Assembly (NCBI GenBank): GCA_016235815.1
Contig: JACRIM010000041.1
Location: forward strand, 1 to 64,000
Origin: Planctomycetota bacterium
GTDB taxonomy: Bacteria; Planctomycetota; Phycisphaerae; UBA1845; UTPLA1
Length of the DNA: 64,000 bases
Direction of reading: 5' to 3'
Shown here: piece after piece, positions 361 through 59,377 of the stretch
How positions within the stretch are numbered: the first letter of the stretch is position 1
Layout: each line of letters begins with the position of its first letter
Program-made: the position numbers and the translations under genes
The notes under the pieces: model-generated
The model's input: only the letters and a program-made list of their open reading frames with translations
What the model was told of the DNA's origin: nothing
Database searches by the model: none

Positions 361-401
361 GTCGAGAAGGGACTGGAAAAGTTGAATGACCCCTTTTACC
401 C
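361..401 (+). repeat. Dispersed repeat, copy 1 (beside the insertion sequence)
   Basis: This 41-base stretch, from GTCGAGAAGG to CCTTTTACCC, matches 44838-44878 at 34 of 41 positions. Weaker similarity appears to continue upstream in both copies (GCCGGC, then a G-rich stretch). The insertion sequence entered its right-hand end. In both places the element lies directly in front of a gene tail that has lost its start. Confidence 0.6.
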
Positions 402-1348
402 TTGACCTGCTCTGTAGAAAACCACGACTCGCCTGACGATCATCAGGTTGTGGGTGATGACTTTCAAGTGCAGGGATCGGTTCTGTCGGTGGAATGAATG
501 GGTGTTGAGCGTCTCGCCGAGTCGTCGCTTGATCATGCTGATGACGGTCTCGACCTGCCATCGCTGGCCGTATTGTCGGCGTTCAGGCGGGCGTTTGAAG
601 TAAGTGCGCATCTGTCTTCGGTACGGGGTGGACGGGGGCTTGTCGGTGGGACGGCCGATCAGCGGCGGAATGAGCGTGACGAGGCCGTGGTCGTCCCGCG
701 CATGGCGATGGACCCACTCGGCGTCGTAGCCTGCGTCGGCCGCAACGGTGCCGAGCGATCGCCGGGCCAGTGCCTCACGTAGGATCTGCTTGAAATGAAA
801 ATGATCCGGCCCGGGTCCGCGCCCCGGCACGGCCGCGAGGATCAAATGAGTCCGACAGTCGGCCAGGATTCCGACCTTGGGGAATCGTCGATAGGTCATG
901 GATTGCAGGTGTTTGTCGGCCCCGCGCGAGCGTCGGCGAACAAAGTAGTGGCTGACGTGATGGGCCTCAAAGCCGCTGCCGTCGACGGCCGTCAGCGGCG
1001 CGCGGTCCCCAAGGAGCCCCGCCTGGCTTGCGAGGGCCAGCGTTTGATCGAGGAGGGCGTGAGCGGCGTTTTTTTTAGAAGCCGGTCGGCGGCCTTCTGC
1101 AGAGTGGTCCAGTGCGGGACTTCGGTCAGTTCGATGACCCGGCACAAGTCGGGCGAATCGATGAGCAGTTGCATGACGCCGCGATAGTCGAGTTTCATGA
1201 ACTCCTTGAGCGTCAGACAGGCGAAAAGCTGATGCTGGGTGAACTTCTTGGGGCTGTAGCGATGGGAAAACGTCGGTAAGGCCCGCCGGGCACAAGCGTA
1301 GCCGACCTCCATCATCCTCCGCGGCGATTTGGTGGTCTTCATGACCAT
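396..1348 (-). CDS. DDE transposase, probably made by -1 ribosomal frameshifting
   Basis: The first frame starts at 1348 (MVMKTTKSPRR) and encodes an N-terminal region ending DRLLKK. The second frame supplies the catalytic part: AVDGSGFEAHH (first Asp), VAADAGYDAEW (second Asp) and YGQRWQVETVISMIKRR (Glu, with the Y-R-E signature). The frames join at an A8 run (1069-1076 on the plus strand). There the zero frame reads CTA AAA AAA ACG, a perfect A_AAA_AAA slippery heptamer, and a -1 slip gives DRLLKKNAAHALLDQ. Without the slip the product is a 118-residue protein. The final IS codon is GCA at 410-408; GGT CAA GGG TAA then come from target DNA, so the stop codon is not in the element. A plain disabling frameshift is the alternative. 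Confidence 0.8.
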
Positions 1349-1398
1349 CTATCGACAACCCAGCAAATGAAACTGGAGACTTGGTTTTCTACAGAGCA
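408..1398 (-). mobile_element. Complete 991-bp insertion sequence, IS4/IS5-type DDE superfamily
   Basis: The ends are perfect 17-bp inverted repeats at 408-424 (TGCTCTGTAGAAAACCA) and 1382-1398. They are flanked by 9-bp direct repeats CCCTTGACC at 399-407 and 1399-1407; because the next base is A on both sides, the duplication could be read as 10 bp. Intact ends and an exact duplication suggest a fairly recent insertion. The single transposase gene lies on the minus strand and is split by a frameshift. The length and the D...D...E residues of the product fit the IS5/IS4 superfamily, but the group cannot be fixed by eye. Confidence 0.9.
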
Positions 1399-16921: not shown

Positions 16922-17542
16922 ATGGATCGCAATGCGAAGCTGCGGGAGTTGGACCAGTTGCGTGCCCAGGTGGCCGCGGTTGAGGCCGAACTGGTCAGCG
17001 ACATCAACCCTCATGCATGGGTGCCGACGACGTATTACACGACGTATCACATCCTCGCGGGCATGATTCTGGGCCTGGCCGGGGCGGTGACAAGTCTGCT
17101 CTTCAATATTGTCGGTGCGGCAATGGTAGGGATGCACCCGCTGGAGCTGATCCGCGTTTATTTGACGTTTCCGCTGGGCGAAAAGGCGCTGACCATCGAC
17201 AGCGGATTCGCCCTCGCGGCGGGGTGTTGCCTGTATCTGGGGACGGGCATGATCGGGGGCGTGCCGTTTCACCTGATCTTGAGCCGTTACTTCGGGGCGT
17301 CGTCGTTTGCGGTTCGACTCTGCATTGCGTCCATCCTCGGCGTCGGCGTATGGCTGATTAACTTCTATGGCATTATCGCATGGCTGCAGCCCACGCTGAT
17401 CGGGGGAAATTGGATCGTGGAGCGGGTGCCGGTGTATGTCGCGTTGTCCACGCATCTTGTGTTTGGCTGGACGATGCTGGCCGTGGATCAGTGGGGGAAA
17501 TTCGCGCCGCCCCCTGTGGCGCGACAGGAGGCGCGGGCGTGA
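16922..17542 (+). CDS. Membrane protein of unknown function heading the cbb3 oxidase operon
   Basis: The product (206 residues from ATG 16922, preceded by GGTGAGAG) has a short coiled-coil start (NAKLRELDQLRAQVAAVEAE) and about five membrane helices. Conserved-looking blocks are INPHAWVPTTYYTTYHILAG and MHPLELIRVYLTFPLGEKAL. I cannot name a family. Its stop overlaps the start of the cytochrome gene in GTGA, so it is translated together with the oxidase and probably assists its assembly or electron supply. Confidence 0.75.
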   Translation: MDRNAKLRELDQLRAQVAAVEAELVSDINPHAWVPTTYYTTYHILAGMILGLAGAVTSLLFNIVGAAMVGMHPLELIRVYLTFPLGEKALTIDSGFALAAGCCLYLGTGMIGGVPFHLILSRYFGASSFAVRLCIASILGVGVWLINFYGIIAWLQPTLIGGNWIVERVPVYVALSTHLVFGWTMLAVDQWGKFAPPPVARQEARA

Positions 17543-18564
17543 AGCGTTGCAGCATACTGATCGGGGTGGTTTTGATTGCGTTGCCGATGATGCCGGCGTG
17601 CGACGATTCGTCGCGGCCGGATGTCGATATGTCGAAGCGGTCGCACTTTGGCTTTCAGACGAGCATCTCGACGTCGCTGATGGAAGAGGGCAAGGTGGCG
17701 TACGCGAATTATTGCGTGGGCTGCCACGGAGCGAACGGCGACGGCGTCGGTGAGGCGTCGCTCTTTCTCAACCCAAAGCCACGAAACTTTGTCATCGGGA
17801 ATTTCAAGTTCAGCTCGACACGATCGGGGCAGCTGCCGACGGACGAGGACTTGCGACGAACGATCAAGCGCGGACTCAAAGGCAGCGCCATGCCGTCGTT
17901 CAAGCTGCTGCCCGACCGTACCGTGGACAGCCTCATCGGTTACATCAAGACGTTTTCGCCAAAATGGACGGAAAACGATCCGCCGGTGCCGATTCCGCTG
18001 GTCGATGATCCGTATCGAAAGATGGCGGACAAGTCCGAGGCGATCAAGCGCGGCGAGGCGGTCTATCACGGTTATGCGAACTGCTGGTCGTGTCATCCTT
18101 CGTACGTGAATGACAAGAAGCTGAACGAGTACATCGTCGCTTTCGGCGGCCAGTCGCGCGAGACGTTCCGGCCTGACATGGATCAGTCGGTGGGCAAGGA
18201 AAACGTCGAGGAAGAAATGCTGTATCCGCCGGACTTCCGACGGGATTACGTTCGCGGCGGGATGACGGCCGACGACATTTATCGATCGGTGTCAGCGGGC
18301 ATCACGGGCACGGCGATGCCGACGTGGGTCGATTCGATCGACGTGCCGGGCAAGAAATCCGGGGATCCGCCCCTCGTCTCCCGGGCGGATCTCTGGGCCA
18401 TGTCGTATTACGTGCAAAGCCTGATCCTTCAACGGCCGCCATTGATGGAGGACGGCAAGGCGCAGATTCGCAATCGGCCGCGACCCATCTATTTGCATGG
18501 CGCGCCGCCGAAAAAGGTGGAACAGCCGGCGACGAGTCAGCCGGGGCAGAGTTTCGAGTTTTGA
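17539..18564 (+). CDS. Diheme cytochrome c lipoprotein of the cbb3 operon
   Basis: GTG at 17539 overlaps the upstream stop (GTGA) and has ACAGGAGG in front. The N terminus is a lipoprotein signal with lipobox MPAC, so the mature 320-residue protein should be anchored on the periplasmic side. Two heme c sites are visible: CVGCH (about residue 58) and CWSCH (about residue 182). Axial Met candidates are AMPSFKLLP in the first domain and TAMPTWVDS in the second. It has the layout of a CcoP-like electron donor, but with a lipid anchor in place of the CcoP membrane helices. Confidence 0.85.
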   Translation: MKRCSILIGVVLIALPMMPACDDSSRPDVDMSKRSHFGFQTSISTSLMEEGKVAYANYCVGCHGANGDGVGEASLFLNPKPRNFVIGNFKFSSTRSGQLPTDEDLRRTIKRGLKGSAMPSFKLLPDRTVDSLIGYIKTFSPKWTENDPPVPIPLVDDPYRKMADKSEAIKRGEAVYHGYANCWSCHPSYVNDKKLNEYIVAFGGQSRETFRPDMDQSVGKENVEEEMLYPPDFRRDYVRGGMTADDIYRSVSAGITGTAMPTWVDSIDVPGKKSGDPPLVSRADLWAMSYYVQSLILQRPPLMEDGKAQIRNRPRPIYLHGAPPKKVEQPATSQPGQSFEF

Positions 18565-18604
18565 TTGTTGAGCAACCGCGTCGTCGCGGGGCAGGGAATA
18601 CGTT

Positions 18605-20044
18605 ATGACGGCATTGAATGTGTCCATGAGTCCGCCGGCGTCGTCGGCTGTGAGGCCGGTGGATGGGTTAGTGGATCGGAAGCTGGCGCTGTGGCACCTC
18701 GTCGCGTCGCTGGTGTTTCTCGGCGTCGCGCTATTGGCGGGGTTTTCTTTCTCGCTGCAGTTCCTGCAGAAGTATCCTTTCCCCGGCATCGAGTTGCTTT
18801 CACCGGGCCGGTGGCGGCTGGTTCATACCAATGGCGTTGCGTATGGGTTTCTTGCCAATGCATTTCTGGGCTGTCTGTATTGGGCCGTGCCGCGCCTGAC
18901 CGGCCAGCCGGTGTACAGCCGGGCACTGTCGTGGTTCATCTTCTGGGCATGGCAGGCGATCGTCGGCGTGACGGCGGTGGGTCTGATTCTTGGGCACGCG
19001 CAGGCGCTGGAATGGGGCGAGACGCCGACGTACGTTGACCCCGTCGCATTTCTTGGATTGATCCTCGTGGCGGTTAATTTCTTGACGCCCATCTTCCGCG
19101 CCAAAGGGCCGATGTACGTGACCCTGTGGTATTTCATCGCGGCATTCGTTTGGACGCCGCTCGTTTATGCGATGGGCAATTTTCTTGCGCAGTATCTGGT
19201 CGGCGGAGCAGCGGGCGGGGCGATCGGCGGGTTGTTCATTCACGATCTGGTGGGCCTCTTCGTAACGCCGCTGGGTTGGGGGTTGATGTACTACTTCGTG
19301 CCGATCATCTTGAAGAAGCCGATGTGGAGCCACGGGCTTTCACTGGTCGGCTTCTGGGGTTTGGCGTTTTTCTATCCGCTGACGGGGATTCACCACTTCC
19401 TGTACAGCCCGATTCCGCTGTTTCTGCAACACGGCGCCGTGATTACGACGATTGCAATTGAGTTCGTGGTCACTACCGTAATCATCAACTTCTTCGGTAC
19501 TCTGGCCGGTCGCGGCGATGCACTGCGGACGAGCCTGCCGATTCGATGGTTCTACACCGGAATGGTTTTCTACTTTACGACGTGTCTGCAATGCTCGTTC
19601 CAGACCACGCTGACCTTCCAACGGCTGATCCACTTCACGGACTGGGTCGTGGGGCATGCACATCTGGTGATGTTCGGCGTGTTCGGATTCTGGCTGCTCG
19701 GGAGCATTCTGTATCTGTTTCCGCGACTGATCGGGGCGAAGGCCTATTACAGCGACGCGCTGAACAGTTGGCATTACTGGCTGAGCGCCCTGGGCACGCT
19801 GATCATGTTCACGGATCTGCTCGTGGCGGGTGTTGTGCAGGGCAATCTTTGGCGGAATCTGGCACCATGGGAAGAGTCGTTGATTGCATCGATGCCTTTT
19901 TGGCTTATCCGCAGTGTGAGCGGGACGATGATCATCGTCGGCAACTTCATGTTCTTCTGGAATCTGTACAAGACGTGGCAGATGACCGTCGCAAGTCGAC
20001 AGACGCAACCCGCTATGCCGGGAACGTCGCCGATGCCGGCGTAA
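18605..20044 (+). CDS. ccoN: cbb3-type cytochrome c oxidase subunit I
   Basis: The 479-residue catalytic subunit has about twelve membrane helices. Visible metal sites are the low-spin heme His in RLVHTNGVAYG, a CuB His in FIHDLVGLF, the CuB His pair in FFYPLTGIHHF, and the heme His residues in VVGHAHLVMFGVFGFW. The Tyr six residues before the His pair matches the cross-linked tyrosine of cbb3 enzymes. Reduction of oxygen to water coupled to proton pumping follows from the family. It lies 40 bases after the cytochrome gene. Confidence 0.95.
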   Translation: MTALNVSMSPPASSAVRPVDGLVDRKLALWHLVASLVFLGVALLAGFSFSLQFLQKYPFPGIELLSPGRWRLVHTNGVAYGFLANAFLGCLYWAVPRLTGQPVYSRALSWFIFWAWQAIVGVTAVGLILGHAQALEWGETPTYVDPVAFLGLILVAVNFLTPIFRAKGPMYVTLWYFIAAFVWTPLVYAMGNFLAQYLVGGAAGGAIGGLFIHDLVGLFVTPLGWGLMYYFVPIILKKPMWSHGLSLVGFWGLAFFYPLTGIHHFLYSPIPLFLQHGAVITTIAIEFVVTTVIINFFGTLAGRGDALRTSLPIRWFYTGMVFYFTTCLQCSFQTTLTFQRLIHFTDWVVGHAHLVMFGVFGFWLLGSILYLFPRLIGAKAYYSDALNSWHYWLSALGTLIMFTDLLVAGVVQGNLWRNLAPWEESLIASMPFWLIRSVSGTMIIVGNFMFFWNLYKTWQMTVASRQTQPAMPGTSPMPA

Positions 20045-20065
20045 CGGCGAGGAGAGATTGGACGC

Positions 20066-20782
20066 ATGTTTGAATCGAAATCAGGCATCTTTCTCATCGC
20101 GGGGCTGGGCTTCTTCGCGCTGTCCTTCGTCGTGATGGCCGTATTGCCGTGGATGATCTACTACAAAGAGCCTGAGCAGACTGTCGCGATGATGGCGCAA
20201 AAAGGGATGGTGCCGGAGTTCGCCGATCTGGCGGAGCGGTATCCCGAGCAATTCAAAAAACACTTTGGCGAGGTGAACTACAAGACCTATGCCGAGGCAT
20301 TGCAACTGGGCCACGACGTGTATGTGGCCGAGGCGTGCTGGCATTGCCATTCGCAGTTCGTGCGGCCGGTGTCGAATGAAGACCTTCGCTGGGGCCCGGT
20401 ATCGCATGCGTTGGAGTATCAAAACACGTTGCAGCGGCCGGTGCTGTTTGGAACGCGCCGTGTGGGGCCGGACTTGATTCGCGAGGCGGCGCGCCGGCCG
20501 AATGACTGGCATGTGGCGCACTTCTACAATCCCTTGTCGGTGCAGCCCACGTCGGTGATGCCGGCGTATTCCTGGTTCCTGGATGAGCAGGGCTACCCGA
20601 ACAAGAAGGGCATGGCGATCATCACCTACATCCAGTCGCTGGGGAGTTGGCTGCGCGAGTATCCGTACTTTGAGGGAGACGGGCCGCTCGGACCGGCGGC
20701 ACACCCCGAACAGCCCTATGGCGGAAAGCCGGTGCCCAAGCAGGTGGTGAACGCGCCGACCGAAGGGAGCCGTCAATCATGA
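20066..20782 (+). CDS. ccoO: cbb3-type cytochrome c oxidase subunit II, monoheme
   Basis: One N-terminal membrane helix (GIFLIAGLGFFALSFVVMAV) anchors a periplasmic monoheme domain with the site CWHCHSQF (family consensus CxxCHSQ) and the axial Met in SVMPAYSW. The sequence GTRRVGPDLIREAARRPNDW is typical of CcoO. It passes electrons from the cytochrome c partner to CcoN. GAGGAGAG precedes the ATG. Its stop overlaps the next start by ATGA. Confidence 0.93.
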   Translation: MFESKSGIFLIAGLGFFALSFVVMAVLPWMIYYKEPEQTVAMMAQKGMVPEFADLAERYPEQFKKHFGEVNYKTYAEALQLGHDVYVAEACWHCHSQFVRPVSNEDLRWGPVSHALEYQNTLQRPVLFGTRRVGPDLIREAARRPNDWHVAHFYNPLSVQPTSVMPAYSWFLDEQGYPNKKGMAIITYIQSLGSWLREYPYFEGDGPLGPAAHPEQPYGGKPVPKQVVNAPTEGSRQS

Positions 20783-21099
20783 TTGCCCGACCCGATGAGA
20801 CACGAACAAAGCGCATTGTGATCGGATGCATCGCCGTGGCGATCCTGGGGCCGGCTTCCTACGGATTCTTCGAAAAGCTGTACCTCTTCATTCTGGCGGT
20901 TAAGAAGGATCAGTTGGCGGGCTTCACGATCGTGCCGATTGCGAATTATCTGATCGTGACGGCGGGGATGGTATGCCTGCTGCTCTGGGCCACGCGGCAT
21001 GGAATGTTTCGCAATATCGAAAAACCCAAGTATGACATGCTGGAGCGCGAGGCTGAACTGGACGCGCTGGATGAACAAACGAGAAAGAACGAGCCATGA
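20779..21099 (+). CDS. Small two-helix membrane protein in the cbb3 operon
   Basis: This 106-residue protein starts on an ATGA overlap with ccoO. It has two membrane helices (IVIGCIAVAILGPASYGFF; NYLIVTAGMVCLLLWAT) and a charged C-terminal tail (MLEREAELDALDEQTRKNEP). It occupies the place of ccoQ but is longer than usual CcoQ and shows no clear homology by eye. A role in assembly or stability of the oxidase is inferred from position. Confidence 0.7.
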   Translation: MIARPDETRTKRIVIGCIAVAILGPASYGFFEKLYLFILAVKKDQLAGFTIVPIANYLIVTAGMVCLLLWATRHGMFRNIEKPKYDMLEREAELDALDEQTRKNEP

Positions 21100-21263
21100 C
21101 GAACCAGCACGATGACGCCGCTCCGCAAAGCGAGGGCCGGTATCACACGTATGTCACGCACCACATTCCGTGGTATGTCCGGGCGTTGTGGATTTGTTTC
21201 TGGGTGGGCGCCATCTGGTATGTCGTGAAGTTCGCGATACCGATGGCGAGAAACTACTTCTAA
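21096..21263 (+). CDS. 55-residue single-helix membrane protein in the cbb3 operon
   Basis: ATG at 21096 overlaps the previous stop (ATGA), and its TAA at 21261-21263 overlaps the next ATG (TAATG), so this small gene is fixed by its two neighbours. The product has a His-rich lead (GRYHTYVTHHIPWYV) and one membrane helix (LWICFWVGAIWYVVKFAI). Size and topology resemble CcoQ or CcoH-like subunits. The exact identity is not settled. Confidence 0.75.
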   Translation: MTNQHDDAAPQSEGRYHTYVTHHIPWYVRALWICFWVGAIWYVVKFAIPMARNYF

Positions 21264-23416
21264 TGAACGCAACCGACGAGCGAGGGGTGGCGGCGTGCGA
21301 CTTCTGTCACCTTCCGGTCGCGGGGGCCAACACGTCAGACGGTCCGTTGTATTGCTGTTATGGATGCCAACTGGCGGCGGACATTACGCGCGCACGCGGT
21401 GAGGCCGGCCAGTTGAACTGGATGCTGACTCGCATGGGCCTGTCGGTTTTTCTCTCCATGACGGTCATGATGTTCAGCATGTATCTCTATCGCCAGCACG
21501 GACTCAGCGCTGAGGATGTGACGCCGCTTTCGCTGCAGCTCGCGAGCGTGATGCGTTATTTGTGCCTCCTCTTCTCAGTGCCGGTGTTCTTCATGCTGGG
21601 ATGGCCGATCCTCGTCATGGCGATGGAGGGGGCGCGGCGCGGCGTCTATTCGACGGATGCACTGGTGGTGCTCGGTGTGGCGGCGTCGTTTGTGTATTCG
21701 TATGTCTCCACGCTTCGCGACAGCGGGGCCGTGTACTTCGAAACCGGATGCGTGGTGCTGGTGTTTATGACGCTGGGCCGGTGGCTGGAGGCAAACGGAA
21801 AGCTGAAGGCGTCGAAGGCGGTGGCATCGCTGGAGGGGCTGTATCCCGAGCGCGTGACGATTGTGCGCGACGATGGCGAGCAAGAGGTCGCACCGGGCGA
21901 GGTGTGCGAAGGCGATGTCCTGATCGTCCACGCGGGCCAGCGCATTGCGGCGGATGGTGAGATTGTGCATGGGCGCGCTCACATCGATGAGAGCATGTTG
22001 ACCGGCGAAAGCGTTCCCATTGTGAAGGAAGTCGGCGCGATCGTGCGGGCGGGGACGCTTAACGTGGATGGATCGTTGCGAATACGGGCGACATCGGTCG
22101 GCACGCACAGCACGATCGGCCGAATGGTCGCCTTGTTGGAGGAGGCCAAGCGATCGAAGGGCGCGTGGGAGAGGCTTACTGATCGGATCGCGACGGCGTT
22201 CGTGCCGTTGACGCTGATGCTTGCCGCGACAGGCTTCGCGCTCGGTGCGCGTCGCGGCGGAATCGACGGCGGATTGATGTCGGCGATGGCGGTGCTTTTG
22301 ATTGCATGTCCGTGTGCGTTGGGTATCGCGACACCGATGGCCGTGTGGGTGTCGCTGGGTCGCGCAGCGCGGAAAGGAATTCTGTTTCGCGGCGGCGACG
22401 TAATTGAGACACTCGCCGCGGCACGGGCGATCTGCTTCGACAAGACCGGCACGCTGTCGACCGGCGAGGCGACCGTAACGGCGTTTCATGCGGCTGAAGG
22501 TGTGACGACTTCGAATGCGCTTCAGACCGCGCGGCGACTGGCGGCTGGTTCGAACCATGTCTTGTCGAGGGCCATTGCGGAGTATGCGAGTTCTCGCCAT
22601 CACACCGAGGGACCGGCGTTAGAGGTACGCGTGGTGCCGGGGCGCGGCATCATGGCTACGGCGAATGCAGAACCGGTGATGCTCGGCAACCCCGCGATGA
22701 TGGAAGAAAACGGCTGCGTCATGGACGCTCACCTGACGGACGCAGTGGCGCGAATTCACAAGGCCGGTTCGCCGCTGGCGTGCATCGGTTGGGCGGGGGC
22801 GGTTCGCGGCGTGTTTGAGTTTGCGGAGCGATTGCGGCCCGAGGCGAGGGCTTCGATGAATGCATTGCGACACATTGGTTTGTCGCCCGTGGTGGTAACC
22901 GGGGACCATGAAGGCCGCGCTGCGGCGATTAGCCAATTGCTTGATGTCGAAGCACACGGTGCGCTGCGGCCGGGGGACAAGGTCGAGAAGATCAAGGAGC
23001 GGCGCCGCGCCTCAAGCGCGGTGGTAATGGTGGGCGACGGGATCAACGACGCCCCGGCGCTTGCCGCGGCCGACGTGGGCATTGCGATGGGCTGCGGCGC
23101 GGACATTACGCGTGAGAGCGGCGGCGTGTGTTTGCTCGGCGAGAATCTGCTTGGCGTGCCGTGGGCCATTTCGCTGGCGCGGCGCACGGTTCGTACGATC
23201 AAGGTCAATCTGTTCTGGGCGTTCGCGTATAACGTCGTCGGGATCGGTCTGGCGTTGTCAGGCCGGCTGAACCCCATCTTTGCGGCGTTCGCCATGCTAG
23301 CCAGCAGTGTGATGGTTATTGCCAATTCGCTGCGCCTGGGTCGAGGGGATCGCGACGAGATGGCCGGCGCGGAAGATGTTCGAGCCGGCAAATTCCTGGT
23401 GGAGGCAACGACGTGA
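21263..23416 (+). CDS. ccoI: Copper-transporting P1B-type ATPase, CcoI-like
   Basis: ATG at 21263 overlaps the preceding TAA and gives 717 residues. A Cys-rich N-terminal metal-binding region (CDFCHLPVAG...YCCYGCQLA) is followed by membrane helices, the actuator loop with TGES, the CPC ion motif in ACPCALGIATP, the phosphorylation site DKTGTLS, and GDGINDAPAL. The P1B signature normally reading SEHPL here reads SNHVL: the His is kept, the Pro is Val. Placement in the oxidase operon points to copper supply for CuB of CcoN, as for CcoI/CtpA. Confidence 0.92.
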   Translation: MNATDERGVAACDFCHLPVAGANTSDGPLYCCYGCQLAADITRARGEAGQLNWMLTRMGLSVFLSMTVMMFSMYLYRQHGLSAEDVTPLSLQLASVMRYLCLLFSVPVFFMLGWPILVMAMEGARRGVYSTDALVVLGVAASFVYSYVSTLRDSGAVYFETGCVVLVFMTLGRWLEANGKLKASKAVASLEGLYPERVTIVRDDGEQEVAPGEVCEGDVLIVHAGQRIAADGEIVHGRAHIDESMLTGESVPIVKEVGAIVRAGTLNVDGSLRIRATSVGTHSTIGRMVALLEEAKRSKGAWERLTDRIATAFVPLTLMLAATGFALGARRGGIDGGLMSAMAVLLIACPCALGIATPMAVWVSLGRAARKGILFRGGDVIETLAAARAICFDKTGTLSTGEATVTAFHAAEGVTTSNALQTARRLAAGSNHVLSRAIAEYASSRHHTEGPALEVRVVPGRGIMATANAEPVMLGNPAMMEENGCVMDAHLTDAVARIHKAGSPLACIGWAGAVRGVFEFAERLRPEARASMNALRHIGLSPVVVTGDHEGRAAAISQLLDVEAHGALRPGDKVEKIKERRRASSAVVMVGDGINDAPALAAADVGIAMGCGADITRESGGVCLLGENLLGVPWAISLARRTVRTIKVNLFWAFAYNVVGIGLALSGRLNPIFAAFAMLASSVMVIANSLRLGRGDRDEMAGAEDVRAGKFLVEATT

Positions 23417-24126
23417 TTGCGGAGCTGGCACCCGTGCTCGCGGGAGGATTTCTCGGATCGGCGCACTGCCTCGGCATGTGCGGCGGATTTGCCGCGGCCA
23501 TCGGTGCGGCCGACGTGCCGTTCTGGCCGATCTTCGCGCGGCAGTTGGTCTACAACGTCGGCCGAGTCTTCACGTATGCATTCATGGGGTGCCTTGCGGG
23601 GGCGGGCGGGACCTATCTTTCCAACGTTCAGATCGGGCCGGTCAATGTGCAGCAGGTTTTCTCGATCCTCGCCGGCGCGATCATGCTGTTGGTTGGGCTG
23701 TCGGCGTTGCAGATCGTGCGACTGCCGGCCGCGTGGATGAACTACACGACGGGGTTGTTCAGCCCGCTGTATGCACACTTTCTCAACGCGCGCGGGTGGT
23801 TCGGATACTTCGCCGCGGGGATCGCGAACGGATTTCTTCCGTGCGGACTTGTCTATTCGTTTGTCGCGTTGGCCGCAGCAAGAGGCGATGTCGTAGGAGG
23901 CATGGCGGTCATGATTGCATTCGGCCTGGGGACCATTCCCGCGATGATGCTGATTGGTTGCGGGACAACGATCATGACTCATGCGACGCGGCGGCGGATC
24001 TATCGCGTGGCTGCGGTGTTTGTGATTGGGCTGGGCGCGCTCACGATGTGGCGGGGGTGGCCGCGGGAGTCGCCTTGCTGCCATGAAACATCCGCGCTAT
24101 CGTCCAGCGTGGACGGAGTTGAATGA
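23413..24126 (+). CDS. TauE/SafE-like (UreH-type) membrane protein
   Basis: GTG at 23413 overlaps the ATPase stop (GTGA). The 237-residue protein has about six membrane helices with the family motifs GSAHCLGMCGGF near the start and ANGFLPCGLVYSFVALAA in the middle. The paired Cys residues could bind copper. Proteins of this type accompany cbb3 clusters in many bacteria and are thought to help copper or cytochrome maturation. The C-terminal tail has a CC pair. Its stop overlaps the next start (ATGA). Confidence 0.82.
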   Translation: MIAELAPVLAGGFLGSAHCLGMCGGFAAAIGAADVPFWPIFARQLVYNVGRVFTYAFMGCLAGAGGTYLSNVQIGPVNVQQVFSILAGAIMLLVGLSALQIVRLPAAWMNYTTGLFSPLYAHFLNARGWFGYFAAGIANGFLPCGLVYSFVALAAARGDVVGGMAVMIAFGLGTIPAMMLIGCGTTIMTHATRRRIYRVAAVFVIGLGALTMWRGWPRESPCCHETSALSSSVDGVE

Positions 24127-24521
24127 GCCGCACCGCCGTTAATTTTCTGCTTGATTGTTTTCTGCTGCTGGTGCTTGTGGTCCTGATGTGGACGACGGCG
24201 GTGGTGCAGTTCATCTTTCCCGCCGGGACAACGGCCGCGGGGTGGACATTGTGGGGGCTTGATTTCAATTCGTGGCAACGAGTGCAGGGATTCGTGTTCG
24301 CCGTGTTCCTGCTTTCGGTGCTGGTGCATTTGATCCTGCATTGGACGTGGGTTTGCGGCTTCGTCGCGGCGCGAATCGGAAAGATGCAGGGCCGGCACAT
24401 TTCAACGAACGAGGCGACGCGAACGGTCTATGGCGTGGCGATGCTCGCGATCATCCTGACGGTGCTTGGAACAGCGGTGTTCATGGCACAACTGATGGTG
24501 CGCGCTCCGGCGGCGCGATGA
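24123..24521 (+). CDS. DUF4405-like small membrane protein, last gene of the cbb3 operon
   Basis: The protein has three or four membrane helices and the pattern NFLLDCFLLLVLVVLM...FIFP...WGLDFNSWQRVQGF...VHLILHWTW, which resembles DUF4405 (a b-type-cytochrome-like fold with His in HLILHW). Heme binding is possible but unproven. It begins on an ATGA overlap with the TauE/SafE-like gene, so it belongs to the same transcript. Confidence 0.7.
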   Translation: MSRTAVNFLLDCFLLLVLVVLMWTTAVVQFIFPAGTTAAGWTLWGLDFNSWQRVQGFVFAVFLLSVLVHLILHWTWVCGFVAARIGKMQGRHISTNEATRTVYGVAMLAIILTVLGTAVFMAQLMVRAPAAR

Positions 24522-36559: not shown

Positions 36560-38002
36560 CTAATCCATCGGCGGGTGTTGCTGAACGTCGTCAACGTCGG
36601 ACGAGAGCGGAGGGGTTGCCTTCGCATTGCGCCTCGGCGGGCGCTTGCCGGCCTTGATATCCTCATCAAATTGACGCTTCGATCGCAGGATGTGATGGTA
36701 ATGCTGCGCGAAGCGGTGGGCCTCATCGCGGACCTGTTGCAACAGGCGAAGGGCCGGGTCGTTGCGGGCGAGCTTCAGCGGCTGCTTTCGCGCCTGGATG
36801 TAGATTTCCTCCTCGCGCTTGGCGAGTGAGATCACCATCGGGGGCTTCACGAACATCTCTCCGCAGGCGGCCAGCGCGGCGTGCAGTTGGCCGAGGCCGC
36901 CATCGATCATGATGACGTCGGGGTACATCTCTTCGCCCTCGGCCGCGTGGCGGTAACGACGCTGCACGACCTCACGGATCATGGCGTAGTCGTCCTGGCC
37001 CTCCACCGTCTTGATGCCGAAGCGCTTATAGCCGCTCTTGAAGGGGACGCCGTCGATGAAGCAGACCAGCGCGCCGACGGATTCCTCGCCCTGAAGGTTG
37101 GCGATGTCGATGCCTTCGAGGATGCGCGGGGCGCGGTCGAGTTCGAGGATCTTCGCGAGGCGTTCCAGACCTTCGCGCGGATCGACATAGAAGACTTCGG
37201 GTTGGACGTGTTCATCCACGTCGCCGGACAGGGCGAGTTTTTGAATGGCCTTGATGCGATCACGGACGCGGGCGGCTTCTTCGAAGTTCAGGGCATCGGC
37301 CGCGGCCTGCATTTCGCCCTGCATTTCTCGCAGGACGACGCTCTTCTTCGACGCCATGAAACGCTTGAGCCGGTCGATGTCCTTCTTGTAATCCTCGCGA
37401 CTGATGCGGTCGGCGCAGGGGGCCGTGCATTGGTTGATCGAGTGCAACAGACAGGGGCGGAAGAAACGCTTTTTGTCGTCATCCTCGCGGATGTCCAACT
37501 CGCAGGTGCGAAACTTGAACACCTTTTGCAGGGCGTTCACCGCATCGCGAAGCGAGCCGGCCGAGGTGAAGGGCCCGTAGAGCTTGCTGCCCTTGATGCG
37601 CGGCGTGCGCGTAACGAAGACGCCGGGGAAGTCGTCATCGGTGGTGATCTCCAGATAAGGAAACGACTTGTCATCCTTCAGCATCGCGTTGTGCGGCGGC
37701 TGGATGTCCTTGATGAGGCGGTTTTCCTGCAGAAGGGCGTCGACCTCGCTGTCGCATTCGAGGAAATCAACATCGACCACCATGGCCGCCATGCGGGCGA
37801 TGTCGGGCCCGCGCGTTCGGAGAAGGTCGGCGGAATCCTGAAAATAGGAAGAGACGCGGGCGCGGAGGTCTTTGGCCTTGCCGACGTAGAGGACGCGGCC
37901 TTTGGGGTCCTTCATCAGGTAGACGCCCGGGGCCTTGGGGAATAGGGAGACTTTGTCGCGCAGGGATTGGATGCGAGTGGCGGCGTTGTGGATAGACTCC
38001 AT
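36560..38002 (-). CDS. uvrC: Excinuclease ABC subunit C, lacking the HhH tail
   Basis: An N-terminal GIY-YIG nuclease domain (APGVYLMKDPKGRVLYVGKA) is followed by the four Cys of the UvrC iron-sulfur site (FRTC; PCL; QCTAPC), a UVR helical pair (MQAAADALNFEEAARVRDRI) and the RNase-H-like nuclease (GIDIANLQG, VIMIDGGLGQLHA, VRDEAHRFAQHYH). The protein stops just after HHILRSKR, where the tandem helix-hairpin-helix normally begins. The 480 residues compare with about 600 in E. coli. The last 40 residues are low-complexity. It should make the dual incisions of nucleotide excision repair. Confidence 0.92.
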   Translation of the reverse strand: MESIHNAATRIQSLRDKVSLFPKAPGVYLMKDPKGRVLYVGKAKDLRARVSSYFQDSADLLRTRGPDIARMAAMVVDVDFLECDSEVDALLQENRLIKDIQPPHNAMLKDDKSFPYLEITTDDDFPGVFVTRTPRIKGSKLYGPFTSAGSLRDAVNALQKVFKFRTCELDIREDDDKKRFFRPCLLHSINQCTAPCADRISREDYKKDIDRLKRFMASKKSVVLREMQGEMQAAADALNFEEAARVRDRIKAIQKLALSGDVDEHVQPEVFYVDPREGLERLAKILELDRAPRILEGIDIANLQGEESVGALVCFIDGVPFKSGYKRFGIKTVEGQDDYAMIREVVQRRYRHAAEGEEMYPDVIMIDGGLGQLHAALAACGEMFVKPPMVISLAKREEEIYIQARKQPLKLARNDPALRLLQQVRDEAHRFAQHYHHILRSKRQFDEDIKAGKRPPRRNAKATPPLSSDVDDVQQHPPMD

Positions 38003-47762: not shown

Positions 47763-48707
47763 TTAGTGCGAGAGCGACCCTTCGGAGAAGGTCTTCATCA
47801 GGTGGATGGCGGCCGGGCCGGCGAGCACCACGAAGATCGCGGGGAAGATGAAGAGAATGAGCGGGATGAGCAGCTTGACGGCCGTCTTCTGGGCGCGTTC
47901 CTCGGCCTTTTGGCGGCGCTTGGTGCGAAGGCTCTCGGCCTGATTTCGCAGTGCCTTCGCGATGCTGGTGCCGAGCTTCTCGGCCTGCGTGATGACCGCG
48001 ACGAGGGCGCGCATCTCCGGCACGCCGGTGCGGTCGGCCATTTTTGTGAGGGCCTCGGACCGCGTCGTGCCCATCTGCGTTTCGACGACGGCGATCTGGA
48101 ATTCCTCGGCGAGGTCTTTGTGAACGTTGCTCATCTCGTCGCTGACGCGCTGCAACGAGGCATCGAGACCCAGCCCTGCTTCGACCGCCACGACCATGAG
48201 GTCCAGCGAATCGGGCATTCCGTTGCGTACCGCTTCCATGCGCTTCTTCGCGGCCATGCCAAGCCAGAAATTCGGAAGCATGAAGCCGATACCGAGGCCG
48301 AAGATGGAGTAGTAAATAACCTTTGACGTTTCGTTATTGCCGCTGGAGGCGTAGATAAAGAGCAGGATGCCGCAGAGAAGACCACCGGCCGTCTTGCTGG
48401 CAAGAAAGAAGCTCGCCGCGGACTGCTGGCGAAACCCGGCGCTGGCCAGTTTGGCGCGAAGCGTTGTTTGTTCCTGCTCGTTCTGGGGCATGGCCGGCCT
48501 GACCAGCAGGGGGATCGCGGCGTTGAGCATATTGGAGGAGGCGCGGGCGCGGGCCTTGTTCTGAAGCGAGTTCTTATCCTGATCGACGGTAAGGCCGGCG
48601 GTTCGGCGTTTGACGATTTCCTGCTGCTCTGACTTGTTGGGCATCAGGGAATAAATGATGAGCGCCGCCGCGATTCCCGCCATGACTGCAAGACCGATGA
48701 GTTCCAT
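47763..48707 (-). CDS. tadC: Tad pilus inner-membrane platform protein TadC
   Basis: The 314-residue type II secretion F-domain protein has an N-terminal helix, a central GLDASLQRVSDEMSNVHKDL block with the F-domain pattern, and C-terminal helices (LIPLILFIFPAIFVVLAGPA). The order after TadB and the ending are typical of TadC. With TadB it forms the membrane platform on which CpaF acts. It is the last gene of the tad locus. Confidence 0.9.
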   Translation of the reverse strand: MELIGLAVMAGIAAALIIYSLMPNKSEQQEIVKRRTAGLTVDQDKNSLQNKARARASSNMLNAAIPLLVRPAMPQNEQEQTTLRAKLASAGFRQQSAASFFLASKTAGGLLCGILLFIYASSGNNETSKVIYYSIFGLGIGFMLPNFWLGMAAKKRMEAVRNGMPDSLDLMVVAVEAGLGLDASLQRVSDEMSNVHKDLAEEFQIAVVETQMGTTRSEALTKMADRTGVPEMRALVAVITQAEKLGTSIAKALRNQAESLRTKRRQKAEERAQKTAVKLLIPLILFIFPAIFVVLAGPAAIHLMKTFSEGSLSH

Positions 48708-48719
48708 GGAGCGCGCCTC

Positions 48720-49733
48720 CTAGACCTTGATGTTGATGATCTTCTGAATCAGGGCGAGACCGAAGAGCTGCGAGACGCCCGCGCCGATCAGCATGTACTG
48801 GCCGATCTGATCTTCGATCATCACGTTGGCATAGGTGGGGTTCAGGACCAACTCAACAAAGAACACCACAACGGGCAGCGCAAGGAGCACATACCCCGAG
48901 AGCCGGCCTTCCGCCGTGAGTGCCCGGACGGTGCCGAAGAGCTTGATCCGCTCACGAATGACGCCGCTGATGTTGTCAAGCACTTCGGCGAGGTCACCAC
49001 CGGTCTGCCGCTGAATGAGCACGGCCGTGACGAAGAATCGCACGTCCATGATGTCCACCCGGCGGGCCATGTCTTTGAGGGATTCGTCGATCTTGATGCC
49101 GAGGTTCTGCTCGTGGAAGACGCGGGCAAACTCGGTGCCGACCGGGTCCGGGAGTTGCTGGCTGATGAGCAGCACGGCGTTGGAGAGCGAGTGCCCCGCG
49201 CGAAGCGCCTGGCTCATCAGTTCGAATACGTCCGGCAACTGATGCACGAACTTGTTCATTCGCCGCTTGGCGAGAAACCAAAAGGTAATCAGCGGGCCGA
49301 AAATAGCAAGCCCGGTGAGAGAAAGCGTGACCCATGCGGGCCATTGCAGCATGAAGCCGGCCATGTAGGAGAGCGATGCGATTCCGACGAGGTTTACGAT
49401 GACGGTGGTGGCGGTCCAGTGCAGATTCGCGCGTTCGAGATTGTGTTGGAGGTTGGAGACGAACCCGAACCGGGCGAAATACTGACTCAGCACGCCGCCT
49501 TTTTGTTCCTGGCGACGGAGAATCGAGGCCTTCGCGGCCTTCTCATTGGCGGACTCGGTGAGGGCATCCTCGCGAAGGCGCTGGGCGACCTTTTTGGTTT
49601 CCACCTTGCGCAGGTCGGCGATGAGATTGAAGATGGCATAGGTGAGCGCGACCCCGCCGACGAGCGGCAGCGCGATCATAGTGATCTGCTCGGTCATGCC
49701 GATGGACTGTGCCAGTACGAAAAGGTCCGTCAT
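48720..49733 (-). CDS. tadB: Tad pilus inner-membrane platform protein TadB
   Basis: Another F-domain protein (337 residues): LPDVFELMSQALRAGHSLSN and VFHEQNLGIKIDESLKDMARRV, followed by GGDLAEVLDNISGVIRER, are the classical TadB/PilC blocks. Membrane helices flank them. It lies 12 bases upstream of tadC and is probably translated together with it. Confidence 0.92.
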   Translation of the reverse strand: MTDLFVLAQSIGMTEQITMIALPLVGGVALTYAIFNLIADLRKVETKKVAQRLREDALTESANEKAAKASILRRQEQKGGVLSQYFARFGFVSNLQHNLERANLHWTATTVIVNLVGIASLSYMAGFMLQWPAWVTLSLTGLAIFGPLITFWFLAKRRMNKFVHQLPDVFELMSQALRAGHSLSNAVLLISQQLPDPVGTEFARVFHEQNLGIKIDESLKDMARRVDIMDVRFFVTAVLIQRQTGGDLAEVLDNISGVIRERIKLFGTVRALTAEGRLSGYVLLALPVVVFFVELVLNPTYANVMIEDQIGQYMLIGAGVSQLFGLALIQKIINIKV

Positions 49734-49786
49734 TGGGCGCGTATCCCCCGCCGGGAATAATCGGACGGAAAGCCCCGCGGCGTCAC

Positions 49787-51307
49787 TTATACGTGCTCGT
49801 CCGTGGCGAGAACTTGCCGCTCAAAGATGCCCGGATCGATGTCGCACCCGGCCGACTTCAAGCGATCGAGGAATTTCGGACGCAGCCCGGTGGCCACGAA
49901 TCGGCCCCAGGCCTTACCGGACCCATCCACGCCCATCTGCTCAAACTTGAAGATTTCCTGCATGGTGACCGCCTCCCCTTCCATGCCTTGCACTTCGGCA
50001 ATGGACATCACCTTTCGGGGACCGCCGGTCAGACGCGACGCGTTGATAAGCAGATGCACGGCACTGGCAAACTGCTGTCGAATCGCTTTCACGGGCAAAT
50101 CAAAGCCGGCCATCATGACCATCGTTTCGATACGTCCAACGGCATCACGAACACTATTGGCGTGGATCGTGGTGAGCGAACCGTCGTGGCCGGTGTTCAT
50201 CGCCTGGAGCATGTCAAGCGTTTCGGCGCCGCGGCACTCACCAACGACGATGCGGTCGGGCCGCATACGCAGAGCGTTGATGAGGAGATCTCGGATGGCG
50301 ATTCGACCTTTGCCTTCGATGTTGGCCGGGCGTGACTCAAGTCGGACGATATGCGGCTGCCGCAGGCGCAATTCGGCAGCGTCTTCAATGGTGACGATGC
50401 GGTCTGTTTCTGGAATGAACGACGACAGGTTATTGAGGAGCGTCGTCTTACCAGAACCAGTTCCGCCGGCCACGATGATGTTCAAATGGGAAACGACACA
50501 TGCCTGAAGGAAGGTGACCATTTCCTTCGTGACGGAGTTGAAGCGGAGATAGTCGTCCCAGGTAATCGGATCGGCGCCAAAGCGACGAATCGACATGGAT
50601 GGACCGTCGATGGCGAGCGGAGGAATAATGGCATTGACGCGGGAACCGTCTTTTAGCCGGGCATCCACCATCGGGCTGACTTCGTCACAGCGTCGTCCGA
50701 CCGACGAGACGATCTTGTCGATGATGTGCATCAGGTGGGCGTTGTCTTTGAACGTGCAATTGGAAAGGCTCAGCCGCCCTTTTCGTTCAACGTACACCTG
50801 CTTGGGGCCGTTAATCAAAATGTCGCTAACGTGAGGGTCTTTCAGCAGCGTTTCAAGCGGGCCCAGGCCGAACGTCTCATCCAGCACCTCGTTGATCAGG
50901 CGCTGCCGTTCATTAAAGTTGAGCAGGGCATTCTCTTTTTCGCAGAGCGAGGAGATGACCTGCTTCACTTCTTCCTTCACGTCGTCGCCCGTCCGCTTCG
51001 ACAAGGCGGCGAGATCGAGCGTCTCCACGAGCTTCTTGTGGATGCGCGTCTTGAGTTCATAGAACTCGTCCGATCGATCATTGGCTTTCGCGACCGCCGA
51101 CGCCACGGCGGCAGGCGGCTTCAGTGCCGGTACCGGCGTTGGCGCGGCCGGCGGTGCGGGAGCTTCGCCGTGCGGTGGCGAGGCGACCGGTGCCTGCTCG
51201 ACCGGCGGCGTGGCCGGCACGGCGGGCGCAGCGGGCGTAATCTTTGGAATCTTCAACGCGGGAATCTTGGTGCTTCCGAACACAGTGTCGCTCCCCCAGT
51301 GAATCAC
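49787..51307 (-). CDS. cpaF: Tad pilus secretion ATPase CpaF/TadA
   Basis: After a Pro/Ala-rich lead of about 70 residues comes the CpaF core: [33 protein letters not shown], Walker [15 protein letters not shown], the Asp box [11 protein letters not shown], the Walker-B region [13 protein letters not shown] and [16 protein letters not shown]. It is the hexameric motor for both assembly and retraction of Flp pili. The Pro/Ala-rich lead resembles a flexible tether. Confidence 0.94.
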
Positions 51308-51328
51308 TGGCGCTGGTAAATACGTTGC

Positions 51329-52579
51329 CTATACGGCCATCGGTGTCGTCGGATCAGGCTGATCGGGCTTGGGCGGCTCCGGGTGTTTATGGACACGGTT
51401 AAGCAGCTTGCCGAACAAACTGACCTGTTTCGGTTTATCTGCCTCGTACTTCTCCGGGCAGTGCAGGCGAATGGCGATGTTATGAATGTCCTGTCGCACC
51501 TTTGCCCGGTCATACTCGTACTTCAGCGGTCGGCCGATGTTGACGCTGCAACTGACGGCCTTCCAGTCGTCGGCGATGGTGGCAAAAACCTTTCGGTTGA
51601 GAATCGTCTCGACCTGCGGCACTTCCAGGTGGGCGGATTCGCGGCCCAGCCGATTCACCAGAATGCTGATGCGATTGGTGTTGAATCCCTGAACGGCCAG
51701 TTCCTGAAGAATGCGGTCGGTGTTGCGAACATTGGTCACCAAAAGCTGCAACATCAGAAAAATGTAATCCGCCGAGTCGAGCACGCTTCGCCCGCCGGGG
51801 TCGTGCCGCGTCGGGCCGTCGACCACGACGTACGCGCACATTTCCTGAAGCGTGCTCAGGACGTTGGCGCAGTGCGCCGCCGTAATCATCTCGGCCTGAG
51901 CAAACGAGTGCGGCCGGCGCAGAACGAACAGCCCGGACTCGTGCCTGACGAGGGCCTTATCGACGACCTGCGGGTCGAGTTGCTCAGGTGTCGAACAGAG
52001 ATCGGCGACGGTGTATTGCCCATGCACGTCGAGCAGCGTGGCGACGTGGCCGAATCGAAAATCGAGATCGACCAGGGCGACGCGGCCGGCGCTGCCGACC
52101 ATTTCGGCCAACTCCACGGCGAGATTTGTCGCGAGCGTGGTGCAGCCGACACCGCCGCTGCTGCCGATGATGGAGACCAGCTTGCCCGGCTGTTTGGATT
52201 TTGGCGTGATTTCGGCCAGGGCTGAGACGGCCTGTTGATATTCCTCGAGGTTGAGCGGCTTCACCAGATACTCGCGCACGCCGGCCTTCATGGCCTTGAG
52301 CACGACATCGCCTTCGGTGTGCTTGCTGAGTGCGAAGACAGGCAAATGCGGAGACGTTTCGCGAAGCTGGCGCAGACACTCCAGCACGACATGCGCCGAG
52401 GGATCGATGTCCGCGACAATCAACTCACAGTGGAATTGCGACACGGCCTGGCCGATAAGGCTCGGTTCGTCGAGCTCGGCAACGATTCGGACATTCGGCA
52501 GCGACGTGACCGCGCGGCGCAATTCGGGCGCGGCGTCGGCGTTGGCGGTGAACAAAATGACCCGAAGCGGCTGAGCCAT
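51329..52579 (-). CDS. cpaE: Tad pilus localisation protein CpaE/TadZ
   Basis: An N-terminal receiver-like domain (RVILFTANADAAPELRRAV ... LIVADIDPSAHVVLECL ... VREYLVKPLNLEEY) is fused to a MinD/ParA-type domain with SSGGVGCTTLATN in the Walker A position. Both lysines of the canonical KGGxGKT are missing, as is common in TadZ proteins, which bind rather than hydrolyse nucleotide strongly. It places the pilus machine at a cell pole or focus. It is 21 bases upstream of cpaF. Confidence 0.9.
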   Translation of the reverse strand: MAQPLRVILFTANADAAPELRRAVTSLPNVRIVAELDEPSLIGQAVSQFHCELIVADIDPSAHVVLECLRQLRETSPHLPVFALSKHTEGDVVLKAMKAGVREYLVKPLNLEEYQQAVSALAEITPKSKQPGKLVSIIGSSGGVGCTTLATNLAVELAEMVGSAGRVALVDLDFRFGHVATLLDVHGQYTVADLCSTPEQLDPQVVDKALVRHESGLFVLRRPHSFAQAEMITAAHCANVLSTLQEMCAYVVVDGPTRHDPGGRSVLDSADYIFLMLQLLVTNVRNTDRILQELAVQGFNTNRISILVNRLGRESAHLEVPQVETILNRKVFATIADDWKAVSCSVNIGRPLKYEYDRAKVRQDIHNIAIRLHCPEKYEADKPKQVSLFGKLLNRVHKHPEPPKPDQPDPTTPMAV

Positions 52580-52715
52580 AGATGATGCCGAAACGGCAAT
52601 CTCCCCCGGGCAGGACCGGACACGTGGGGCGACTCACGCCGCGGAATACGACGCCGCGCGAAAGACACCCGTCGTCTTATCGGCCACCGTGATCGCGCAC
52701 TTTGGTAACAGACAA

Positions 52716-52752
52716 CCGCCGCGATCGACCCATGTCGGATCGACCGCGGCGG
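52716..52752 (-). terminator. Strong hairpin between the VWA/TadG gene and cpaE
   Basis: The arms CCGCCGCGATCGACCC (52716-52731) and CGGATCGACCGCGGCGG (52736-52752) pair along about 15 positions. Read on the minus strand the stem is followed by TTGTCTGTT. It could terminate or attenuate transcription from the pilin end before the motor genes. The 217-base gap holds nothing else. Confidence 0.45.
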
Positions 52753-52796
52753 CCGTGTCATTCTCGGGACGCGCCCCTGCGCGGTCCGAAAAGTAG

Positions 52797-54731: not shown

Positions 54732-54945
54732 AACACACCCTCCGAAAAAAAACACCAATGGAATTGCCCCGGGCGAATGCCGCCCGGTGCGTTAGACCCC
54801 GGTCGGCGACCCCCACACACATTGAGGCCGCGGCGCCGAGGGCGGATTCCAGGATGTCAACCAATGGACCGTCGCCTCCTACATCGGCGGACGGCTTCTC
54901 ATCGGCACTGATCCGGGGCGCTGGGCCTGCCGGACGCCGATGTCG

Positions 54946-57734: not shown

Positions 57735-57803
57735 CTCTCGGTCGCACCTTTCACTAAACACGCCGAACTTTGGGTCCGGCGCACGGAGACGATCGCATCG
57801 TCC

Positions 57804-58948: not shown

Positions 58949-59122
58949 TTACGGCAGCTTCGAGGTCACGTCGGAAAAGGTCGAGGACACCTTGGTGCCC
59001 AGAGCGCTGATCGCGCCCAGCGCGATCACGATGATCAACGCGAGCATGACCGCATACTCTGTCGCTGTGGCGCCTTCCTCGTCCCGAAGAAACGAATTCA
59101 GCTTGTTGATCCAATGCTTCAT
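58949..59122 (-). CDS. flp: Flp-type major pilin, copy 1
   Basis: The 57-residue prepilin follows AAGGAG. It has a basic lead ending in RDEEG, where cleavage by CpaA should occur after the Gly, then ATATEYAVMLALIIVIALGA (the Glu-Tyr pair and helix of Flp pilins). It differs from copy 2 mainly in the lead peptide and by a few residues near the end (SDVTSKLP against ANVTSKLP). Confidence 0.93.
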   Translation of the reverse strand: MKHWINKLNSFLRDEEGATATEYAVMLALIIVIALGAISALGTKVSSTFSDVTSKLP

Positions 59123-59203
59123 GGCTTCTTTCTCCTTCAGGTGCAGAGGCCAGCGCCCGCACCAACGAATCTTTCCAGAAATTCGCTTCGTGCTTTGCCT
59201 CAA

Positions 59204-59377
59204 TTACGGCAGCTTCGAAGTGACGTTCGCGAAGGTCGAGCTGACCTTCGTGCCCAGCGCGCTGATCGCACCAAGGGCAATCACGATGATGAGCGCCAGC
59301 ATGACGGCATATTCCGTCGCCGTGGCGCCTTCTTCGTCTCGCAGAAACGACTTGACGTTCTTGATAAAGGCCTTCAT
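59204..59377 (-). CDS. flp: Flp-type major pilin, copy 2
   Basis: The same length (57 residues) as the neighbouring pilin and nearly identical from RDEEG onward. The lead MKAFIKNVKSFL differs from MKHWINKLNSFL. AAGGAGA precedes the ATG. It is the first gene of the minus-strand tad locus. The pair probably arose by tandem duplication and may be exchanged or kept alike by gene conversion. Confidence 0.92.
   Translation of the reverse strand: MKAFIKNVKSFLRDEEGATATEYAVMLALIIVIALGAISALGTKVSSTFANVTSKLP

Follow-up and report, generated by a model that had tools for sequence, protein, structure and literature searches.

A divergent oxidase operon conserved across Planctomycetota

We analyzed a 64,000-nucleotide stretch of a Planctomycetota genome (contig JACRIM010000041.1, assembly GCA_016235815.1, positions 1 to 64,000; hereafter the window) and focused on an operon that appears to encode an unusual member of the cbb3 oxidases, the standard high-affinity O2 reductases. 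Nine open reading frames of this operon lie on a single strand and span positions 16922 to 24521:

16922..17542, + strand: 206-residue membrane protein without a family match, candidate lineage-specific subunit (open frame, AlphaFold2, hydropathy)
17539..18564, + strand: diheme cytochrome c lipoprotein with two CxxCH motifs, two conserved Met and a lipobox (profile match to 6h5l_B)
18605..20044, + strand: CcoN, divergent C-family oxidase catalytic subunit (PF00115, 1.8e-61; PDB alignment, site survey, tree)
20066..20782, + strand: CcoO, monoheme subunit (PF02433, 1.3e-33; 3mk7_B, 2.1e-23)
20779..21099, + strand: 106-residue protein with a CcoS/FixS-like C-terminal half and an additional N-terminal membrane helix (PF03597, 2.1e-4, residues 58-88)
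21096..21263, + strand: 55-residue protein with one helix, which is probably the N-terminal (FixP_N-like) helix of CcoP in detached form (profile comparison)
21263..23416, + strand: CcoI-type copper-transporting P1B ATPase (TIGR01511, 6.8e-138; TIGR01525, 4.1e-157)
23413..24126, + strand: DsbD_2/SafE-like membrane protein that probably acts in copper or thiol assembly (PF13386, 1.3e-42)
24123..24521, + strand: 132-residue three-helix DUF4405-like protein, variable cluster member (PF14358, 3e-5; 24.9 bits against a cut-off of 26.7)

Neighboring frames overlap at six of the eight junctions (five by 4 nucleotides, one by 1 nucleotide), and gaps of 40 and 21 nucleotides separate the diheme gene from ccoN and ccoN from ccoO, respectively. 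A first-pass annotation, made from the letters alone, had proposed a compact oxidase operon of nine genes with overlaps at seven of eight or nearly all junctions. The operon and its nine genes stand, with CcoN, CcoO and CcoI recognized by Pfam and NCBIfam models, and the overlap count is corrected to six. The genes for the CcoI-type copper ATPase, the DsbD_2/SafE-like protein and the DUF4405-like protein fit a cbb3 assembly neighborhood. A search for an FNR box upstream of the operon gave, at best, one site with three mismatches.

Related loci were fetched by CcoN, and in the best 80 of 364 relatives, nearly all from Planctomycetota, each gene was counted with iterated profiles. Some of these contigs are incomplete, and three pairs of loci (L005/L084, L030/L034 and L077/L081) resemble near-duplicates. 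The 206-residue protein had a relative in 74 loci, the 106-residue protein in 75 and the 55-residue protein in 73 (72 at E<1e-3); the diheme protein was detected in 72, CcoO in 79, CcoI in 66 and DsbD_2 in 61; the DUF4405-like protein occurred in 43, frequently outside the operon. Two gene orders were seen, with the 206-residue gene directly before the diheme gene (22 loci) or directly after it (44 loci), and in most loci of both orders ccoN-ccoO-106-55-ccoI-dsbD2 followed downstream. The nine-gene operon is thus real and conserved across Planctomycetota. Given their locus counts, the three small-protein genes are not chance frames, and the suggestion that these proteins are conserved with the oxidase held up: none proved absent from related operons, and one, the 106-residue protein, turned out to match CcoS.

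CcoN retains the catalytic core with three altered positions

CcoN from the window and the 80 loci (81 sequences) was aligned to 6xkw_n. We used Pseudomonas stutzeri numbering, with positions 203, 207, 257 and 258 taken from PMC3578206 and all other residue numbers counted from the 6xkw_n alignment. All 81 sequences retain the six heme/CuB His ligands, the active-site Tyr251, Tyr223, Ser240, Asn289 and Tyr317. They also uniformly carry Gly203, Asp208 and Gln323, whereas all 30 canonical planctomycete CcoN sequences (L115-L144) have Trp203, Asn208 and Glu323. We take Tyr223, Ser240, Asn289 and Tyr317 to belong to the K-type channel, and we likewise presume the function usually given to Glu323. 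Among 34 further noncanonical CcoN sequences, 33 have Gln323. Gly at position 203 is known from Nitrospina and Sinorhizobium, according to the accessible text of PMC3578206. CcoO is canonical, its PF02433 and 3mk7_B matches being those listed above and the former exceeding the family cut-off. Judged by these features, the enzyme is a divergent member of the C-family (cbb3-type) oxidases, and O2 would be its substrate: the CcoN ligands, tyrosine and K-channel residues and CcoO are all present, while a one-chain CcoP and a TIGR00780 score above the cut-off are not found.

The exchanges of Gln for Glu323 and Gly for Trp203, at sites invariant in the 30 canonical sequences, could also mark an enzyme that descends from a C-family oxidase but reduces nitric oxide instead of O2. 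We consider this very unlikely, as no member of the set departs from Tyr251 or the K-channel residues, the operon holds copper-delivery genes, NorB gave only a marginal PDB match (8.5e-4), and the genome has a separate protein resembling a quinol-dependent nitric oxide reductase (qNOR).

CcoN-like proteins of other planctomycetes (L160, L167 and L169) combine Gly at the Ser240 site with Gly203 and Gln323. We also observed long frames at some oxidase genes, namely ccoO of 901 residues in L153 and ccoN of 937 residues in L175 and 1518 residues in L161, which are possible fusions or open extensions.

We placed these sequences in a quick CcoN tree of 70 rows that drew on 27 of the 80 close loci and 10 of the 30 canonical ones, left out the partial L181 and L182, and was supported by the Shimodaira-Hasegawa-like approximate likelihood ratio test (SH-aLRT) only; long branches were flagged for L175, L168 and L155. 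The set diheme-ccoN-ccoO-106-55-ccoI-dsbD2 tracks one CcoN clade of 43 rows (SH-aLRT 99). Exceptions within it are L155, without a match to the 106-residue protein, CcoI or DsbD_2; L174, without a 55-residue match; and L062, with neither a 206- nor a 55-residue match; several others end with their contigs. The 206-residue protein tracks a 32-row subclade, 4 rows of which are without it, and the branch joining all rows that bear it has a support of only 82. Canonical CcoN forms a separate clade (support 100), set off by a long branch (2.14 changes per column).

The diheme cytochrome is a lipoprotein of another family than CcoP

The diheme protein starts at a GTG codon at 17539 and has one N-terminal hydrophobic stretch that ends in a lipobox (PAC|DDSS). 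Cytochrome c domains were detected in it by Pfam and NCBIfam models, and it has two CxxCH motifs and no membrane helix past the N terminus. The lipobox was called automatically in 57 of 71 relatives and recognized by eye in 11 of the remaining 14, giving 68 of 71. These features agree with the first-pass description of a lipid-anchored diheme cytochrome in place of a helix-bearing CcoP. In an alignment built with 35 of the 72 relatives (alignment A4), both CxxCH motifs and two Met are invariant across its 36 members.

The diheme profile matched its nearest solved relative, 6h5l_B, at 5e-58 over nearly the whole length, whereas CcoP chains matched at 1.9e-11 and weaker, mainly around single CxxCH regions. 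By this profile comparison the protein belongs to a different diheme cytochrome family and is not a shortened CcoP. We take 6h5l_B to be Kuenenia kustc0457, the redox partner of kustc0458, a protein resembling hydroxylamine oxidoreductase (HAO). The operon protein shares with 6h5l_B a pair of CxxCH hemes but, unlike it, is a lipoprotein encoded beside an oxidase. A pairing of diheme cytochrome and HAO-like protein for kustc0457/kustc0458 is described in the accessible text of PMC6423088 and PMC12485887.

A four-helix protein is linked to the divergent oxidase

The 206-residue protein was modeled with AlphaFold2 from 73 rows (mean predicted local distance difference test score 90.5; predicted template modeling score 0.78). 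The model places membrane helices at residues 40-68, 95-123, 129-160 and 171-187 and a soluble helix at 3-26. Hydropathy also gives four membrane helices, so that the five originally counted reduce to four plus a soluble N-terminal helix. The claim that it matches no recognized subunit was borne out, in that we found no family for it in Pfam or NCBIfam and no solved relative among PDB sequences. By fold, the best Foldseek hit had an E value of 0.35, with none at E<=0.001, and the best VIA hit was FtsX (Z 6.8, 116 aligned, root-mean-square deviation 4.1), in the range of common helical arrangements. Subthreshold family matches (NMN_transporter at 0.015, DUF3040) were dropped because they vary from member to member. 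Matches to PDB sequences of bacteriorhodopsin (0.11) and a nucleoporin coiled coil were attributed to composition, and a bis-histidine heme b site is unsupported, there being a single invariant His (178).

Across 246 genomes of the phylum, the 206-residue protein occurred in 10, and CcoN shared its contig in 9 of these, which ties the protein to the divergent oxidase. In the tenth (G225), its gene adjoins a weak 55-residue match on the opposite strand. In L156 and L157 the gene points away from the neighbors of ccoN, and in L012, L028, L048 and L062 no 206-residue gene was found in the upstream DNA covered, although that stretch is not truncated. The linkage to CcoN suggests that the 206-residue protein most likely serves as an extra structural subunit, one that packs against CcoN and was gained within the clade.

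The 106- and 55-residue proteins resemble known oxidase parts

The 106- and 55-residue proteins have two predicted membrane helices and one, respectively, as first described. The accompanying claim that they match no known subunit did not survive for the former and is probably wrong for the latter. The FixS family (PF03597) was matched by 68 of 76 members of the 106-residue family at E<=1 (best 4.1e-6). The window copy scored 21.4 bits over residues 58-88, just short of the 23.1-bit cut-off, and in a whole-genome search (4.58 Mb, 60 contigs) it was the sole FixS-like match (E 0.053). Like FixS/CcoS, it has the motif WA-x3-GMF-x-DIE-x-PK-x2-ML, here after its second helix; unlike the single-helix FixS/CcoS, it has an extra N-terminal membrane helix and 106 residues against 44 model positions. 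On these grounds we take it to be CcoS with an added helix.

In the 55-residue protein, Y19, P25, W32 and W36 are invariant, and H17, I24, W26, F35, Y42 and P49 nearly so. We compared its profile with one made from the FixP_N domain (PF14715) of 27 canonical planctomycete CcoP sequences. In local mode, the unenlarged profile matched at P 3.5e-4 over 41 columns, and among 100 control windows taken from other operon proteins none scored better than P 0.0049 against FixP_N. Adding 15 relatives from divergent loci brought the match to P 1.4e-5 (Prob 80%), and four remoter relatives brought it to P 2.6e-6 (Prob 89%), with the register and a five-residue gap constant throughout; of 100 control windows set against the enlarged profile, the best reached P 0.003. 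Taken alone, 13 divergent members matched FixP_N at P 1.5e-4 in the identical register. An intermediate was found in L176, where a 67-residue stand-alone protein behind ccoO matched FixP_N nearly full length at E 0.0074 and the 55-residue profile at E 0.0068. FixP_N and the 55-residue protein share an H-x-Y start, a proline before the helix and an aromatic helix with Tyr near its end; unlike FixP_N, the protein stands alone, is heme free, and is five residues shorter, without the G-I-x-E stretch. Since the match grows as relatives are added and an intermediate exists, the 55-residue protein is probably the CcoP helix, detached and made as a separate protein.

Searches of PDB with the 55- and 106-residue profiles gave nothing usable. 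For a CcoQ origin of either protein, comparison with a CcoQ set of only 7 sequences gave no signal (P 0.15 for the 106-residue and 0.067 for the 55-residue protein).

Two kinds of cbb3 operon in the phylum

The canonical planctomycete operons encode a CcoP with one CxxCH together with small CcoQ-like genes. FixP_N was found in 42 of the 246 phylum genomes, and these did not include any of the 10 genomes that carry the 206-residue protein. This mutual exclusion is weak, because only about 1.7 shared genomes would be expected by chance. No FixP_N was found in the genome of the window itself, nor in the 80 loci at E<=10. In that genome we also found no CcoG. Alternative complex III was rejected as a partner, the genome having no NrfD and two cytochrome b matches. 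It has a strong second COX1 match. Elsewhere in it (locus L003, contig C54) a 797-residue qNOR-like protein, named by eye, lies ~7 kb from a cytochrome b match.

With canonical CcoNOQP (3mk7, 6xkw and the planctomycete relatives) the operon shares the CcoN metal ligands, Tyr251 and K-channel residues, CcoO, CcoI and the CcoS motif. It differs in lacking a one-piece CcoP and any CcoQ-like match (against the 7 sequences compared), in having Gly203, Asp208 and Gln323 for Trp, Asn and Glu, and in its extra 206-residue protein and diheme lipoprotein. CcoN, CcoO, CcoI, the CcoS-like protein and DsbD_2 are familiar, ordinary parts, as they would be in an everyday cbb3 operon whose CcoP and CcoQ are poorly conserved and in which nothing is new. 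This is very improbable, since the canonical operons of the phylum, with their FixP_N CcoP and CcoQ-like genes, belong to another CcoN clade, and the 206-residue protein and the diheme family are foreign to the canonical parts list. What is unusual here is the apparently split CcoP, the different diheme family, the altered conserved residues and one four-helix protein without a known family.

The accessible text of PMC3578206 describes a cbb3-like oxidase of Nitrospina gracilis that likewise has Gly for Trp203, with all three subunits fused in a 954-residue protein, whereas the planctomycete oxidase seems to be split further. For Scalindua, the accessible text of PMC13253579 reports cco genes without a canonical ccoNOQP operon and no clear ccoQ. 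We found no description of a split-CcoP arrangement in the accessible open-access literature, the scope of our search.

A proposed split-CcoP variant of the cbb3 oxidase

Taken together, we favor, as fairly probable, a split-CcoP variant of the cbb3 oxidase, in which the CcoP helix is supplied by the 55-residue protein, the heme c domains by a lipid-anchored diheme cytochrome that belongs to a different family, and a lineage-specific four-helix subunit is added. That the 55- and 206-residue proteins are subunits, and the order of electron transfer given below, is what we infer; the gene content, conserved residues, lipobox and lack of a FixP_N match are read directly from the sequence. Electrons would pass from a bc-type complex to the diheme lipoprotein, then to CcoO heme c, CcoN heme b and the heme b3/CuB site, and protons would reach that site by the one K-type channel, which is conserved (Tyr223, Ser240, Asn289, Tyr317, Tyr251). 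The 55-residue helix would occupy the CcoP helix position beside CcoN, and CcoI, the 106-residue CcoS-like protein and the DsbD_2 protein would serve copper supply and maturation of the metal sites. In the Rhodobacter capsulatus supercomplex, cytochrome b is contacted by the CcoP helix, according to the accessible text of PMC7876108, so a detached helix could keep this contact while the cytochrome part became exchangeable.

Several results weigh against this reading, and those for the 55-residue protein come first. A Pfam search of its family retrieved FixP_N in 1 of 73 members, at E 0.55 and below the cut-off; hhalign in global mode gave P 0.013; and two CcoI windows scored better than FixP_N against the unenlarged profile (7.4e-5 and 1.2e-4, over 18 columns). 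The five residues that include the conserved G-I-x-E of FixP_N are absent, and this gap removes the conserved Glu of D-G-I-x-E. Scores below all curated cut-offs, and short CcoI windows that win on a small profile, would also suit an unrelated single-pass protein whose likeness to FixP_N came from shared aromatic and proline helix ends. We regard that as unlikely, if still deserving of some weight: the likeness keeps one register over 41 columns, strengthens as relatives are added and exceeds 100 control windows, the L176 intermediate matches FixP_N, and the position behind ccoO fits.

Among the other adverse points, the window CcoN scored 209 bits against TIGR00780, for which the cut-off is 583, and a 206- or 55-residue match is missing from some loci. 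No diheme gene lies within 9 kb in L049, L061, L077 and L081, all of which keep the 55- and 206-residue genes, and because of this absence the diheme protein may not be an obligatory oxidase subunit. Its absence near four oxidases, its lipoprotein nature and its lack of likeness to CcoP along its length would be in keeping with a two-subunit CcoNO oxidase, served by the lipoprotein as a tethered donor (compare Rhodobacter cytochrome cy) and by small proteins that act as assembly factors and leave the complex; the 106-residue protein is CcoS-like, and Pfam describes FixS as a maturation protein. However, the 55-residue protein resembles a structural helix and is retained where the diheme gene is missing, and the diheme gene directly adjoins ccoN or the 206-residue gene in most loci. 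A CcoNO enzyme of this kind thus seems to us a minor but serious contender, and the split-CcoP variant remains our preferred reading.

Other features of the window

396-1358, - strand: transposase-like frame near the left end of the window (named by eye)
36560-38002, - strand: frame of 480 residues that we take to be UvrC-like, apparently short against a usual UvrC length of presumably about 600
~47763-57761: Tad-type pilus locus with CpaF-, TadB/TadC-, RcpA- and CpaB-like frames (named from translations)
58949-59377, - strand: two tandem, near-identical Flp-pilin-like genes of 57 residues each, beside the Tad-type locus

Alignment A2 left out L056 and L082, both of which are truncated.

Implications for respiration in Planctomycetota

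The CcoP glutamate of the G-I-x-E stretch is, we presume, the canonical proton entry. More tentatively, and with somewhat less than even confidence, we propose that the operon represents a class of its own among the C-family oxygen reductases, one that is widespread across Planctomycetota. This class would combine CcoN and CcoO with a CcoP helix made separately, a diheme wire anchored by lipid and a previously undescribed four-helix subunit. It would have an altered heme b3 pocket (Gly203, Gln323) and would be without the CcoP glutamate stretch by the canonical proton entry, so that electron and proton entry would lie on different, exchangeable parts.

Because its CcoN falls far below the equivalog cut-off and there is no FixP_N and no CcoQ match, curated models will tend to miss or misname this oxidase, and what is said about microaerobic respiration in planctomycetes is affected by such missed annotation. 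As a possible new respiratory subunit, the 206-residue protein is a defined target, and natural enzymes with Gln323 and Gly203 would make the roles ascribed to these residues testable. If our reading is correct, a widespread clade without a one-piece CcoP separates the structural part of that subunit, its helix, from the exchangeable wiring, its cytochromes.

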